Program-made: the position numbers and the translations under genes
Shown here: in pieces, positions 2,633 through 29,726 of the stretch
Position numbering within the stretch: position 1 is the first letter of the stretch
How the letters are laid out: every line of letters starts with the position of its first letter
The notes under the pieces: model-generated
Database searches by the model: none
Seen by the model: only the letters and a program-made list of their open reading frames with translations
What the model was told of the DNA's origin: nothing
Origin: Leptolyngbya sp. FACHB-321
GTDB taxonomy: Bacteria; Cyanobacteriota; Cyanobacteriia; Leptolyngbyales; Leptolyngbyaceae
Direction: 5' to 3'
Length of the DNA stretch: 64,000 nucleotides
Assembly (NCBI RefSeq): GCF_014695975.1
Contig: NZ_JACJPI010000081.1
Span: 124,001-188,000, forward strand

Positions 2633-3255
2633 AACTTTTCTGTTAACTCTTTTCTAGGGACTAAGATTGCAATGCACTCCATCATTCCATCTCATCTTAG
2701 GAGCTGAGTCCCAAAATATCGATTGGTACAAATGTATTTTAGCAGCCCTGCTAGCGGTGCGATACGTTTCACTTGTCGATCGATCTTTAGCTTTTGAATC
2801 ATTACTAAAAGATGAACAGCTTTTAATAGCGTGAGGTGGCAGTAGCTGCAAGGCAACGTCTCTTTAGCTAACCTTAGCTATGAGGGCAGAACTCCCCTGC
2901 TTGACCGAAGCTCTAGATCAAGCCCGCGTAGCAGGATTGCTTCTGTAGGTTTATCTATATCTTGCCAGCTACAGAAACTATTTAGTCAGGACTTCAGGCG
3001 TTTTTCAGCCAGCGACCGACTGACCACTAATTGCTGATTATTGCCACAATTGCTACACAAGTCCAAGCTAAAGTCCGGTAACATTACTAAGGTTGGCTGC
3101 TGCATCCTAATGAGCCAATTTTTTATCGTTAAAATCCTGTGCCTGCTGGACTCATAGCGAAAAACATAATAAGATCCAACCTTGATTGCACGTATAGTTG
3201 TGTAGGTGCAAGATCATCCAGCAATTCATTCGTTATTTGAGAGGCATAGAGGCTA
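2633..3255. other. Intergenic region between ssb and mreB
   Basis: About 620 bases without a supportable gene, and the natural place for the divergent promoters of ssb and mreB. I see one 8-bp inverted repeat, TTCTGTAG (2941-2948) with CTACAGAA (2969-2976), which could be part of a leader or small RNA. A CATAATAAG stretch near 3165 resembles a -10 element. Neither is strong evidence. Confidence 0.4.
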
Positions 3256-4293
3256 GTGGGACTTTTTAGTCGCTTTTCCCTATCGCGGGACATGGGCATT
3301 GACCTTGGCACAGCAAATACATTGGTTTATGTGTCAGGCAAAGGTATTGTCCTGCAAGAACCGTCTGTCGTTGCCATGGATCAGGATACGAAGATGCCAT
3401 TGGCAGTGGGAGAAGATGCCAAGCGAATGCTGGGACGGACACCTGGTAACGTGGTAGCACTACGTCCGCTGCGCGATGGTGTTATTGCTGACTTTGACAC
3501 CGCTGAGCTGATGCTGAAGCACTTTATTGCACGAGTGCATGAGGGCAGAACGCTAGTATCGCCTCGAATCGTGATTGGTATCCCTAGCGGCGTAACGGGT
3601 GTTGAGCGCCGTGCGGTGATGGATGCTGCCTCTCAAGCGGGTGCGAGAGATGTTTATTTGATTGATGAACCTGTAGCTGCGGCGATCGGCGCTGGGTTGC
3701 CGGTTGCCGAGCCTACTGGCAACATGATTATTGATATTGGTGGCGGCACTACTGAGGTGGCGGTACTGAGTTTACAAGGAACTGTTTTGAGTGAGTCGGT
3801 GCGTGTCGCAGGCGATGAGCTGAGTGAGTCGATCTCTCAATACATGAAGAAAGTACACAATCTGGTGATTGGTGAACGTACCTCTGAGGAAATTAAAATC
3901 ACGATCGGTTCTGCCTATCCAGTTGATGACGACACCACAATGGAAGTTCGGGGTCTACACTTACTGTCTGGTTTGCCGCGCACGGTAGCTGTGAAAGCTC
4001 CCGAAATTCGTGAAAGTATGTCAGAGCCATTAGCCGTTATTGTGGATGCAGTCAAGCGTACTCTCGAACGCACTCCGCCTGAGCTGGCTGCGGATATTAT
4101 CGATCGCGGCATCATGCTAGCGGGTGGCGGTGCTTTACTTAAGGGCATTGATACCCTGATTAGCCATGAAACAGGCATTGTGGTGCACGTAGCGGCTGAC
4201 CCTCTGAGCTGTGTTGTGCTCGGTACTGGGCGTGTTCTAGAAAACTTCAAGCAATTGGAGCGTGTCTTTAGTGGTCGATCGCGCAACTTTTAG
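3256..4293 (+). CDS. mreB: Rod shape-determining protein MreB
   Basis: 345 residues, full length for MreB. Actin-fold motifs are visible: phosphate-1 [14 protein letters not shown] (about residues 13-26), [10 protein letters not shown] (about 136), phosphate-2 [12 protein letters not shown] (about 158-169) and the adenosine motif [13 protein letters not shown] (about 290). MreB forms membrane-bound filaments that guide lateral cell-wall synthesis. The start is GTG at 3256, behind GAGAGGCATAGAGG. It heads the mreBCD cluster, with mreC 127 bases downstream. Confidence 0.97.
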
Positions 4294-25110: not shown

Positions 25111-25722
25111 TCAGTACCCAGCTTCCTGATCCTTCCTTTCTACTAGCCCAAGGCGATCGAATGGGTAAAAGCGAAACCAGGCACGACCAATAATGTTTTG
25201 CTGCGGTAGAAAACCCCAAACGTGAGAATCATTGCTGTTGTTGCGGTTATCGCCCATCACAAAAAACTCATCCTCTGGCACAGTGACCGGCGGCAGGGTG
25301 TAATTGGGAGGGGCGGCTATATACAGTTCCTGAAGGGGCTGCTGGTTAACAAAAACGGTGCCATTATTAACCTGTACGGTTTGTCCAGGCTGACCAATAA
25401 TGCGTTTGATAAATGCCTGGTCTTTGGTATAGCCCTGAGTTTGAAGTTGCTGTGGCGGATCAAACACAACGATTTCGCCAAAGGCTGGGGGACGAAGGCG
25501 ATAGGAAAGCTTTTCGACTATGAGTCGATCGCCAACTTCCAACGTGGGCAGCATGGAATCAGAAGGAATAAAGCGCGGTTCTGCCACAAAAACCCGGATT
25601 AACAGTGCCAGAATCAGAGCAATGATGAGAATTTGAATGTTTTCCCACCAGGCTCGCCAACGCGGTGGGGCAGAGGTTGCCATAACAGGAGCCTGGGGTT
25701 CGGAGGTTTCTTCAGAAGTCAT
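25111..25722 (-). CDS. lepB: Signal peptidase I
   Basis: 203 residues. One membrane anchor (about 29-47) precedes the catalytic domain. The nucleophile Ser56 lies in PSDSMLPTL and the general-base Lys106 in AFIKRIIG. The family box VMGDNRNNSNDSHVWG (about 155-170) is intact. It removes signal peptides from exported proteins, with the active site on the outer face of the inner or thylakoid membrane. The gene is convergent with the comEA-like gene. Confidence 0.95.
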   Translation of the reverse strand: MTSEETSEPQAPVMATSAPPRWRAWWENIQILIIALILALLIRVFVAEPRFIPSDSMLPTLEVGDRLIVEKLSYRLRPPAFGEIVVFDPPQQLQTQGYTKDQAFIKRIIGQPGQTVQVNNGTVFVNQQPLQELYIAAPPNYTLPPVTVPEDEFFVMGDNRNNSNDSHVWGFLPQQNIIGRAWFRFYPFDRLGLVERKDQEAGY

Positions 25723-25856
25723 AAAGATGTGGCTTAGACAGCAGACATTAAACGCTAGACACTTAACAACAGCCCACCCTTGCAGTTAAGGATAGTCTCT
25801 AGCCCAGAATCTTTAGTCTACTGTCCAGATACTCCTTATACTCGCAAGGGCAGTGG

Positions 25857-26564
25857 TTAGAACGCAATAAACTTTTCTGAGCACAGTTGATCCAGTCGTG
25901 CCCCTAGAGCCAGAACAAAGGCTTGAAGCTGGTTAGAGCGATCGCCCACTGCACAGATGACAATATCAAACGCTGCCAAGTCGAGCCGCAGTCCTGACAG
26001 AACGACTTCTGGGCATTGGATGATCGCCTCACGATAGTGAAAGTTTTTCCAGCTTTGTTGCAATTGCTGCCAGTACTGCTGATAGGGCAACTGATCCGTT
26101 GTTTCGGGATTAGCTTGCACTAGCCACACGGGTTGCCGATAGCCACATTCATGCAGCCAGTCAATCTGGCTTTTTAAGGGTGCAATACCTGAGCCTTCAG
26201 TAATGTAGAGGCGAGGGCGTTGAGGAAGTTCGCTAAGGGTCATCAGCCCATAAGGACCACGTAACGGTAGCACTTGCCCGATCGCTAGATCTTGCAGAAA
26301 GGCAGAACTCCAGCCGACGCGCGAGACGCAGAGTTCAACTTCAGGGCAGTGGGAGGGTGAAGAGGCGATCGAGTAAATTTTGCTAAATTTGCGCCCGTCT
26401 CGTTCAAACTTGGGCCACACGGACTGTCCTGGCAAAAACTGAAAATCATTGCGATCTAACTGCAATCGAATCGCTTTAATGGTTGGGGTTAGAGCGACTG
26501 AATGGATAACCGTAGCAAGATAATCCGCCGTGGGCGATCGGCGCAGAACGTCTAAACTTTGCAT
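25857..26564 (-). CDS. FAD/NAD(P)-dependent oxidoreductase (flavin reductase-like) under a B12 riboswitch
   Basis: 235 residues of the ferredoxin-NADP reductase superfamily. The FAD part shows FLPGQSVWPKFE and KIYSIASSP (usual R-x-Y-S, here K-I-Y-S), then LRGPYGLM. The NAD part shows LYITEGSGIAPLKSQIDWL and ends in EKFIAF. No iron-sulfur motif is present, so it resembles Fre/LuxG-type flavin reductases. A cobalamin riboswitch ends 11 bases before the ATG, so its job probably concerns B12, such as reducing cobalt or flavin during cobalamin assimilation. That link is inference. Confidence 0.85.
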   Translation of the reverse strand: MQSLDVLRRSPTADYLATVIHSVALTPTIKAIRLQLDRNDFQFLPGQSVWPKFERDGRKFSKIYSIASSPSHCPEVELCVSRVGWSSAFLQDLAIGQVLPLRGPYGLMTLSELPQRPRLYITEGSGIAPLKSQIDWLHECGYRQPVWLVQANPETTDQLPYQQYWQQLQQSWKNFHYREAIIQCPEVVLSGLRLDLAAFDIVICAVGDRSNQLQAFVLALGARLDQLCSEKFIAF

Positions 26565-26575
26565 GATAAACCTTT

Positions 26576-26805
26576 GCCTGTGAGTCGCAGGCGTAATGTT
26601 GTAATTGGCTTCAGGCGGGCATCCTGGCTTGGAAAAGGATGGAGGATAAGGGATGAAGGATAAAAGTGAGAAATCTGTCTCAATTTTTTAGCCTTCAGCC
26701 TTCAGCCTTTCTTTCACAGTTGCGTCACAGCACCGGCTTCTCACCGGATTTTCCCCAGGTCAATTTTTCTGACCTCATCTGGGCTGATCCCCCAGACAAC
26801 CTGAA
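26576..26805 (-). promoter_or_regulatory. Cobalamin (B12) riboswitch
   Basis: Read on the minus strand, the core is conserved: GGGGAAAATCCGGTGAGAAG, then CCGGTGCTGTGACGCAACTG, and later GCCAGGATGCCCGCCTGAAG. TTCAGG (26800-26805) pairs with CCTGAA (26610-26615) to close the core. The expression platform is the hairpin GCCTG-CGACTCA-CAGGC (26576-26592); its loop CTCA is complementary to TGAG in the core loop, the L5-L13 kissing pair. The hairpin ends 11 bases before the ATG, next to AAAGG, so ligand binding should block ribosome access. The variable arm (about 26626-26709) contains dispersed-repeat sequence. Confidence 0.93.
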
Positions 26806-27187
26806 CTAGCTTGGGTATTGTAGCCTATGGTTATCTAAACTTGATTAAGCAGTTTATTTTGAGCATATCTAAATGATGAGTACACTCAACCCTGCCCTTA
26901 TTTGATTACTGCTCTTTGTCGCAAACGCCTTCCACCCCTGTTGAATAGAAAAGCAAATAAGTAGGAGGGTCAAATTAAGCACTGCTTAGAAACCGGGTTT
27001 TGGCTGCGCTCAACCCGCTTACTTATAGGACTGAGAGCATTGAAACTTTGACGTTGAGCGCAGCCGAAACATCGAACGCGAAGTCGAGATGCATTTATAT
27101 TAAATAACTATGTCCAGCTACTTACCTGGGTTTACAGCGTTATTCCTATGATTGATGCAGTTAACCTCTTATTGTTGCAATTCATAG
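26806..27187. other. Intergenic stretch between B12 riboswitch and clpC terminator
   Basis: About 380 bases without a gene. It should hold the riboswitch promoter. GGCTGCGCTCAAC (27002-27014) and GTTGAGCGCAGCC (27053-27065) form a perfect 13-bp inverted repeat with a 38-base loop, probably a small dispersed repeat element. Confidence 0.5.
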
Positions 27188-27229
27188 CAAAAATAAAAGC
27201 GGTAGAGAATAACTACTCTCTACCGCTTT
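27188..27229 (-). terminator. Intrinsic terminator of clpC
   Basis: AAAGCGGTAGAGA (27196-27208) pairs perfectly with TCTCTACCGCTTT (27217-27229) around an 8-base loop. On the minus strand the stem is followed by a T-rich run (27188-27196). It begins 22 bases after the clpC stop. Confidence 0.9.
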
Positions 27230-27251
27230 CAAACTATGAGGCTAAAGCGCT

Positions 27252-29726
27252 TTACTCAACTGCTTGGGGCAGTAGCTCCCGCTTTTCACCTTGTAACACT
27301 TTGACTTGACCGTCTGTATCCACATCAACGACAGCAGTATCACCATCCTTAATGCGGCTAGAGAGGATTTCCTCTGCTAGCGAATCTTCCAGTAAGCGCA
27401 TAATCGCTCGACGGAGGGGACGGGCACCATAGCTAGGGTTATAACCTTCTTCAACCAGGCGATCTTTAAATCGATCAGTGACTTCTAGGGTAATGCCCTG
27501 TTCGCGCAAGCGACCAAAGACCTCGTTGAGCATGATGACCGCAATCTCTTTCACCTCGTCCTTCGACAGTTGGCGGAAGACAATGATTTCATCCAGACGG
27601 TTAAGGAATTCAGGACGGAAGTACTGTTTCAATTCCTCGTTAACTAGCGAACGAATGCGGTTGTACTGAGACTCAGCCGCATCACCTGCTGCCGAGAACT
27701 CGAAGCCCAAACCGCCGCCGCCCTTTTCAATCACCTTAGAACCGATGTTAGAGGTCATAATCAGCAAGGTGTTCTTAAAGTCCACCGTGCGACCCTTAGC
27801 ATCAGTCAGGCGACCGTCTTCCAGGATTTGCAGCAGCATGTTGAAGACATCAGGATGTGCCTTCTCAATTTCATCGAACAGAACAACGGTATAGGGACGA
27901 CGACGAACAGCTTCGGTAAGCTGACCGCCTTCGTTGTAACCGACGTAGCCTGGAGGCGAACCAATGAGCTTAGAAACGGTATGGCGCTCCATGTACTCCG
28001 ACATATCAAGCCGGATCATAGCTTCTTCCGAACCGAAGAAGTAGGTCGCTAACGCCTTGGTTAATTCCGTCTTACCAACCCCAGTAGGACCGGAGAAGAT
28101 AAAGCTCGCAATCGGTCGGTTGGGGTTTTTCAAGCCCACACGTGCCCGACGAATTGCGCGAGAAACAGCTCGGACGGCTTCTTCCTGACCAATCAAACGC
28201 TGGTGCAGGGTATCTTCCATGTGTAGCAGTTTCTCGGACTCGGATTCCGTCAGCTTATTAACCGGAACACCTGTCCATGAAGCAACGATTTGCGCAATGT
28301 CCTCTTCATCCACAAGAGGAGAAGCATCTTCGCTAGTCGATTCGTTCTTCTTCGTTTGAGCAATCGCTCGGATCTCGGCTTTGATCTCCATTTCGCGATC
28401 GCGCAACTCACCCGCTTTATCAAAGTTCTGAGAACGAACCGCATCGTCTTTGTCTTTAAGGACTTGACGCAGTTCTTTATCCAGTTCTTTCGCGGCTGGC
28501 GGAAGTTGCGAGTTAAGCAGGCGAACCCGCGAACCTGCTTCATCAACCAAATCGATCGCCTTGTCAGGTAAGAAGCGGTCTGAAATATAGCGGTCTGAAA
28601 GCTTTGCTGCGGCTTCCAGCGCTAAATCGGAGATCTTCAGCTTGTGGTGTTGCTCATACCGTTCACGTAGACCACGAAGGATTTCGATCGTTTCGTCAAC
28701 GCTTGGCTCACCAACCATCACAGGCTGGAAGCGACGCTCAAGGGCAGCATCGCGCTCAATGTGCTTGCGGTACTCATCAAGGGTTGTAGCACCAATGCAT
28801 TGAAGTTCGCCTCGTGCCAGCGCTGGCTTAAGGATGTTGGCAGCATCGATTGCACCTTCAGCCGCACCAGCACCAATCAGAGTATGAACTTCGTCAATAA
28901 CCAGGATGACATTTCCGGCAGAGCGGATTTCATCCATGATTTTCTTCAGGCGTTCTTCAAATTCACCCCGATATTTGGTGCCTGCAACCAGGAGACCAAT
29001 ATCAAGTGTGACGACACGCTTGTCTTCTAAAATGTCGGGAATATCATCATTGGCGATGCGTTGAGCCAGACCTTCAGCGATCGCGGTCTTACCAACACCC
29101 GGCTCTCCGATGAGGACGGGATTATTTTTCGTACGGCGACCCAGAATCTGAATCACGCGCTCAATTTCTTTTTGGCGACCCACAACTGGGTCTAACTTGC
29201 CGTCGGCTGCCATTTGGGTCAGGTTTGAGCCAAATTCATCCAGCGTTGGTGTTTTAGTGCGACCCTGGCTACCACCAGACGTAACCTCGGCGGTTTCGCC
29301 TAGCATCCGGATAACCTGAGTGCGAACCTTGGAGAGGTCAACACCGAGATTTTCCAGGACTCTAGCTGCCACCCCTTCGCCTTCGCGGATCAGACCGAGA
29401 AGCAAGTGTTCAGTACCAATATAGTTATGACCGAGCTGACGGGCTTCTTCTAGAGACAGCTCTAGAACCCGTTTTGCCCGTGGCGTAAAGGGAATCTCAA
29501 CGGCAACGAAGCCAGAGCCTCGACCGATGATCTTCTCTACCTCAATCCGAGCGTCTTTAAGATTAACGCCCATGGATTTCAGCACTTTGGCGGCGACGCC
29601 GGTCCCTTCTCCAATCAGACCCAAGAGGATCTGTTCAGTACCCACAAAGTTGTGTCCCAGGCGGCGTGCTTCCTCCTGGGCAAGCATGATCACCTTAATG
29701 GCTTTTTCTGTGAAGCGTTCAAACAT
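27252..29726 (-). CDS. clpC: ATP-dependent Clp protease ATP-binding subunit ClpC
   Basis: 824 residues, full length. Two Clp_N repeats at the N-terminus ([20 protein letters not shown] and a second at about 80-145), AAA domain 1 with Walker [10 protein letters not shown], a UVR-type middle segment (about 420-455), and AAA domain 2 with GPTGVGKTE and the ClpP loop region. ClpC unfolds proteins and feeds them to ClpP/R. The adaptor clpS lies 6 kb away. A strong terminator follows. The gene is divergent from nothing nearby; rimI lies upstream on the same strand. Confidence 0.97.

Follow-up and report, generated by a model that had tools for sequence, protein, structure and literature searches.

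Within the window, by which we mean the whole 64-kb stretch of DNA that was analyzed, cmscan returned a single RNA family at the gathering threshold, the cobalamin riboswitch (Rfam RF00174). The match lies on the minus strand at 26819-26597, spans the full model (positions 1-189), and scores 43.5 bits against a cutoff of 31.5 (E 1.2e-7). It precedes a gene for a small reductase, and the features of this region are as follows.

26597..26819, minus strand, cobalamin riboswitch aptamer RF00174 (cmscan match and covariation in a 19-sequence alignment)
26800..26805, minus strand, 5' arm of the closing stem, UUCAGG (helix 1, 89.8% of alignment cells paired)
26733..26747, minus strand, P5 stem and loop L5, CCGGUGAGAAGCCGG (helix 5, P5 100% of cells paired)
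26610..26630, minus strand, presumed B12 box and 3' arm of the closing stem, AAGCCAGGAUGCCCGCCUGAA (read from the sequence and the leader alignment)
26576..26592, minus strand, expression platform hairpin P13/L13, GCCUGCGACUCACAGGC (helix 8, 98.9% of cells paired)
26571..26575, minus strand, Shine-Dalgarno-like AAAGG (read from the sequence; putative role)
25857..26564, minus strand, 235-aa FAD/NAD(P)H reductase of the FNR superfamily (ORF, Pfam, and structure model)
25111..25722, minus strand, signal peptidase I, lepB (same BLAST cluster, NCBIfam name)

The original prediction had placed a cobalamin riboswitch at 26576-26805, an interval that runs from the closing stem UUCAGG (26805-26800) through the 3' end of P13 (26576), and had proposed a search with the Rfam Cobalamin covariance model; that search gave the match above. 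It had also placed the riboswitch upstream of a short FAD/NAD oxidoreductase gene at 25857-26564, and this arrangement held as described, with the aptamer, P13, and AAAGG followed by the ATG at 26564 of a 235-residue ORF. The closing stem pairs UUCAGG with CCUGAA, and we take the sequence at 26630-26610 to be what is called the B12 box. In the window leader, CUCA of L13 is complementary to UGAG of L5. The AAAGG adjoins P13, and 6 nt lie between it and the start codon. A plain minimum-energy fold failed to recover the aptamer and was only mildly stable (z -1.97).

We scanned 25500-27260 for other control signals. No terminator-like site was found between the aptamer and the start codon, and no sigma-70-like promoter was found on the minus strand; the single sigma-70-like site of this region lies on the plus strand and is below chance. 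Because P13 abuts the Shine-Dalgarno-like sequence and no terminator-like site precedes the start codon, control of the reductase is most likely exerted at translation. An inverted repeat of 17 pairs with a T-rich tail was seen at 27231-27194 on the minus strand, 3' of a clpC-like gene. It is likely a terminator that separates the clpC-like gene from the riboswitch unit.

In the reductase, Pfam recognizes FAD_binding_6 (PF00970, 32 bits against a cutoff of 21.1) and NAD_binding_1 (PF00175, 19 bits, under the cutoff of 22). Nothing beyond these two was returned at E up to 1; there was no ferredoxin domain in the Pfam scan and no membrane or metal-binding domain in either the Pfam scan or the structure model. 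The protein falls far under the cutoff of every one of the 23 NCBIfam families listed. Its nearest relatives by NCBIfam and PDB sequence search include the oxygenase reductases BenC and MmoC as well as ferredoxin-NADP reductases; BenC, MmoC, and T4moF are its best sequence relatives. An identity as a BenC-type oxygenase reductase was rejected, with a score of 53.5 bits against a cutoff of 430 and without the ferredoxin domain; the MmoC score was similarly remote (52.2 bits against 500). An AlphaFold model built from 13 sequences (mean pLDDT of 89.5) aligned with FNR proteins across both domains. The structure matches included GcoB (Z 27.2), NqrF (Z 26.2), T4moF (Z 25.9), and the E. coli NAD(P)H:flavin oxidoreductase Fre (1qfj; Z 24.7, 2.3 Å over 210 residues), a common fold that is by itself no proof of function. 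Across 19 reductase sequences, the invariant residues were K62-I-Y-S65, G84, S87, E123-G-S with I127-A-P, E230, and F232. The protein is predicted to be a stand-alone, NAD(P)H-dependent FAD enzyme of the FNR fold.

The original prediction called the gene flavin-reductase-like. This stands for the fold, since both this protein and Fre are stand-alone FAD/NAD modules of about 230 residues. It does not stand for family membership: the two share 18% identity, oxygenase reductases beat Fre as a sequence match, and the protein scores 29.7 bits against the cutoff of 230 of the NCBIfam Fre family (NF005963), to which we therefore do not assign it. E. coli Fre has cobalamin-reducing activity. We also rejected a CobR-type identity, in that the short-chain flavin-reductase domain, which is the domain kind of CobR, was absent at E up to 1, where only FAD_binding_6 and NAD_binding_1 appeared. 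CobR-like and PduS-like chains were missing from the fold match lists, an absence that is by itself uninformative.

The next gene downstream, after 134 bases, is lepB. Of the 17 loci that were mapped, the window among them, 10 have a gene of its cluster next to the reductase. In the 16 loci other than the window, 9 members are identified by NCBIfam as signal peptidase I; lepB is a conserved neighbor that is probably not functionally linked. We counted as neighbors all ORFs of at least 100 residues within about 4 kb in these 16 loci (n = 124). Among the families listed, IspG and the Ctp protease were the next commonest, and the recurring families were signal peptidase I, IspG, Ctp protease, a helix-hairpin-helix protein, an aminotransferase, DnaJ, and a glycosyltransferase. 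No B12 family recurred among those listed for the 16 loci, a survey in which a single B12 gene could be missed. The neighborhood gives no clue to the function of the reductase.

We then considered what cobalamin riboswitches accompany elsewhere in cyanobacteria. RF00174 matches were present in 78 of 80 sampled genomes. From these we assembled 123 riboswitch regions, made up of 120 chosen among the matches listed and three from the window's own genome; regions before the reductase were left out, as were others by no set criterion (e.g., G069, G074, G109, and G013). A gene of a cobalt/B12-transport, B12-synthesis, CobW, or MetE-type cluster was found in 95 of the 123 regions, and the remaining 28 held unnamed clusters only or none. 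A profile search of the 357 ORFs in these regions found no relative of the reductase. We read the clusters as HupE-like or CbiMNQO cobalt transport, TonB receptor, CobW, CbiX, MetE, CobG, and CbtB. CbiM was named by Pfam and CbtB by a Pfam match just under cutoff, while MetE and CobG were named from profile matches at the same places; the names HupE-like, CbiNQO, TonB receptor, CobW, and CbiX are our presumptive assignments from sequence. The window's genome has four RF00174 matches, which precede cbiM, an unnamed membrane protein, the reductase, and a CobG-like gene (the last a weak match of 24.7 bits, under the 31.5 cutoff). An Anabaena study names three or more riboswitch loci, which it links to taking up or making B12 (PMC10878165).

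Several of these regions held unnamed genes. In the window's genome, near G000:C82 41277, a 48.2-bit riboswitch is followed by a 202-aa membrane-like ORF without a Pfam family (L002 1658-2266) and, after it, by an ORF that resembles a methyltransferase; four other loci also have related ORFs close to a riboswitch. In seven further loci (L066, L069, L079, L093, L099, L108, and L135), a cobalamin riboswitch is followed by an unnamed protein of 150-200 aa and then by a fatty-acid desaturase or a SAM methyltransferase, an odd module for a B12 regulon. The one member of this 150-200-aa protein that was scanned had no Pfam or NCBIfam match. At L117, the desaturase and methyltransferase occur without the 150-200-aa protein.

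Many riboswitch targets in this set are cobalt transporters (CbiM, HupE-like, and CbtB-like). Together with the lack of a recurring B12 gene among the neighbor families listed, this would fit an enzyme that acts not on a corrinoid but on cobalt or another metal, in uptake, storage, or redox balance under cobalt shortage. Against it, the protein has no membrane or metal-binding domain that we could find, and we consider such a metal role unlikely.

We next examined how often the gene and the riboswitch occur together. The gene is patchy: at the level of the order, 42 genomes were sampled and 9 had an orthologue (E up to 1e-20), and at the level of the class, 30 out of 388 did (E up to 1e-25). 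When 79 of these were searched less strictly, 29 orthologues, at 306 bits or more, stood well apart from the next-best match in another gene at 82 bits. One genome (G004), in which the contig ends inside the reductase gene, was dropped from the riboswitch count and the 79-genome tests, and loci taken to come from one genome, by contigs of the same length or, for one, by the same Rfam score and match length, were counted once. A riboswitch lies before the gene in 18 of the 29 testable orthologues. Fifteen of these exceed the Rfam cutoff, namely, the window, nine loci, and five further ones, of which one was matched as RF01482. The other three fall below it (G064 at 31.1 bits, G038 at 27.1, and G039 at 17.0), and in each of them the core is present in the alignment. 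Recurrence of the pairing in other cyanobacteria, one of the checks proposed with the original prediction, was seen in 15 of 29 orthologues over the cutoff and in 18 of 29 with the weak ones included.

A recognizable riboswitch was missing before 11 of the 29. One of them, ES-bin-22 (G037), retains remnants only, with no match even in a lenient search. The other ten comprise a pair from a single genus of family f24, one in f18, one in f20, and all six in f14. Nine of these ten were searched with Rfam at the gathering threshold, L023 alone also leniently, and the tenth (L047, genome G086) was judged by a motif scan and a genome-wide scan, in which the one match in G086 lies elsewhere. In eight of the ten genomes, all genome-wide RF00174 matches lie elsewhere; G147 has no genome-wide match, and G060 has none before the reductase among the matches listed (one of two). 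One genome that lacks the riboswitch has a P13-like hairpin immediately ahead of the start codon (L052, 7975-7994), perhaps a leftover.

On the protein tree, the riboswitch is found in 18 of the 23 members of one well-supported clade and in none of the outgroup f14. The riboswitch label requires 4 changes (3-5 in bootstraps) compared with a shuffled mean of 9.0, and 1 of 500 shuffles was as low. The inner order of the tree is mostly open, so gain and loss of the riboswitch are not distinguishable. Two loci held broken forms of the gene. G026 (L186, family f1), a genome without the gene, has a C-terminal reductase relic of ~110 residues with 45% identity that lacks the FAD half, at about 3100-3441 of reversed L186; this genome has MetE. 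In the incomplete genome G299 (L041), the reductase appears as two overlapping pieces in different frames, which is either a real break or an assembly error.

The leaders were then compared in an alignment of 19 sequences with 30 named pairs. Standard pairs occupied 88.1% of cells, compared with 20.8-46.1% when one arm was slid, a comparison that leans toward the unslid register because the structure was taken from the window sequence. Changes on both sides were found in 18 of the 30 pairs (shuffle mean of 10.3), including three of the four pairs of P5 and two of the five of P13. One of five covariation measures was not above its control (41 further pair types against 39.4, with 135 of 500 shuffles as high). 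The first two L5-L13 kissing pairs (U-A and G-C) were present in all 19 sequences; they never vary and hence are uninformative. The two further kissing pairs were formed in 44.4% of cells, and the longer kiss is not general among relatives. Mean column identity over the 19 sequences was 43%, so the leader is more than a plain copy. Since 18 of 29 testable orthologues carry the riboswitch and 18 of 30 pairs change on both sides, the riboswitch is not a chance match.

By eye, an extra hairpin-like insertion is visible in L5 of five relatives from the window's genus (L014-L018), and a separate one in the G284 leader (L038). Leaders with the insertion keep P5 and the two kissing bases. The insertion probably explains part of the low scores in the five same-genus relatives.

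These data also bear on whether the riboswitch is a decaying or fortuitous leftover before a gene with no B12-linked function. Scores do drop in near relatives of the window (32.7, 27.1, and 17.0 bits), the element is wrecked in ES-bin-22, and it was not found before the ten further orthologues. However, the window riboswitch is intact at 43.5 bits, the stems covary in leaders of proteins 59-90% identical to the window's, the tree needs fewer than half of the label changes of the shuffled mean, and the low scores track the extra L5 hairpin rather than loss of the core (as judged by eye). We regard a leftover as improbable.

To narrow down a function, we compared 29 genomes with the reductase to 50 without it, in counts that ignore kinship. 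A CobG-type match, with the type assigned from model coverage and score, was found in 8 of the 29 and 18 of the 50 (20 with two weaker ones). BluB exceeded its cutoff in none of the 79 genomes and gave weak matches in 47. CobG and BluB were each rejected as a partner, CobG for want of association and BluB on this zero count. An oxygenase partner had seemed worth considering, as the nearest sequence relatives of the protein are the oxygenase reductases BenC and MmoC and as CobG in the window's genome sits behind the weak riboswitch match described above. With these counts, it is very unlikely that the reductase donates electrons to the oxygenase CobG or to BluB, the flavin-using DMB synthase, in B12 synthesis.

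The CobA/CobO adenosyltransferase was over its cutoff in 22 of 29 reductase genomes and 42 of 50 others. An association with the adenosyltransferase is uninformative, with CobO over cutoff in 64 of the 79 genomes. The seven reductase genomes without CobO over cutoff, in a search confined to the CobA/CobO type, comprise three of f14 and four that are <90% complete. Since 42 of 50 genomes without the reductase carry CobO, the reductase is not the general cobalt reductase.

The original prediction also allowed for a B12-replacing pathway, and here the counts went against it for the two substitutes tested. None of the 29 reductase genomes has a full-length MetE, compared with 10 of the 50 others (nine over cutoff and one just below; Fisher p of 0.011, a statistic that ignores relatedness); two more genomes have fragments. 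NrdB, the small subunit of class I ribonucleotide reductase, was found in 0 of 29 and 2 of 50. E. coli Fre serves in the upkeep of class I ribonucleotide reductase. Although the fold is of the FNR flavin reductase type and 10 of the 123 regions do have a MetE cluster behind the cobalamin riboswitch (no reductase genome is among them), a role in MetE-type methionine synthesis or class I ribonucleotide reductase upkeep is largely refuted for MetE and NrdB and is the least likely explanation of those we considered.

Taken together, the reductase probably helps to make or recycle B12, because its pairing with the riboswitch is kept in many relatives, and perhaps does so by reducing the cobalt of B12. 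The part in cobalamin reduction or salvage suggested at the outset is plausible as a prediction. In our preferred reading, the protein is an FNR-fold reductase under translational repression and supplies corrinoid cobalt with electrons when B12 is low. We give this reading, in which the cobalt step is inferred, a tentative probability of about 0.4. Plentiful cobalamin, in cyanobacteria probably pseudocobalamin, would bind the leader RNA; L5 would then kiss L13, P13 would be held shut beside the Shine-Dalgarno sequence, and little reductase would be made. As the B12 pool falls, P13 would open and the reductase would be translated. The enzyme would most likely pass electrons to corrinoid cobalt, directly or via free flavin or ferredoxin/flavodoxin, taking Co(III)/Co(II) to Co(II)/Co(I), and the reduced new or salvaged corrinoid could then be adenosylated by a CobO/BtuR-type transferase. 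Alternatively, the electrons may serve to reactivate an inactive cob(II)alamin enzyme, such as MetH.

The riboswitch, its place, and its conservation with the reductase gene were observed directly, as was the fold family of the protein in the structure matches. Translational OFF control, B12 as the ligand here, the electron donor, and cobalt as the acceptor are inferred from these. These cells presumably depend on B12 enzymes (MetH and NrdJ) and on B12 synthesis. For a reductase that rises when B12 falls, in cells without the B12-free substitutes tested, the best interpretation is a part in corrinoid reduction, in support of adenosylation or reactivation. The chief weakness of this reading is that most of the sampled cyanobacteria that have CobO lack the reductase gene, which would make the enzyme an auxiliary solution or one confined to certain lineages.

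The riboswitch is an ordinary member of RF00174. It shares the whole-model match, the closing stem, P5, the B12 box, and P13/L13 beside the gene start, and it differs in its target, an FNR-fold reductase not being among the targets named in the available portions of PMC10878165 and PMC3766115. The reductase is a newly noticed member of a known regulon and not a new kind of system. We found no earlier report of the pair in the literature searched; supplementary target lists lay outside this search, so an earlier listing is possible. A survey of hundreds of cyanobacterial riboswitch genes is cited in PMC8123684.

A functional parallel is CobR, a flavoenzyme proposed to reduce corrin cobalt before adenosylation; in the same excerpts, CobR is likened to the flavin reductases PheA2 and TftC (PMC4083273), whereas the window protein has FAD_binding_6 and NAD_binding_1 only. 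In the accessible text of PMC7242693, CobR is credited with the reduction of Co(II) in the aerobic route, and for CobA-type adenosylation the reduction is apparently done by free flavin (the text prints "in the aerobic pathway" in a section on the anaerobic one). Excerpts of PMC8123684 state that CobR-like reductases may be nonspecific and that cyanobacteria are major pseudocobalamin makers. In the literature searched, part of it available as excerpts, no enzyme was assigned to corrinoid cobalt reduction in cyanobacteria. The more specific proposal, a lineage-specific FNR-fold corrinoid reductase that is unrelated to CobR and is induced through the riboswitch under B12 shortage, is a doubtful but possible prediction.

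With its place behind a B12 riboswitch conserved in several genera, the reductase is a concrete candidate that would be easy to test. If the prediction is true, it would assign a function to an FNR subfamily that has no name and enlarge the cyanobacterial B12 regulon by one gene. It would also mean that these apparently B12-dependent cyanobacteria have a dedicated enzyme for cobalt reduction, a step otherwise left to free flavin or unassigned.
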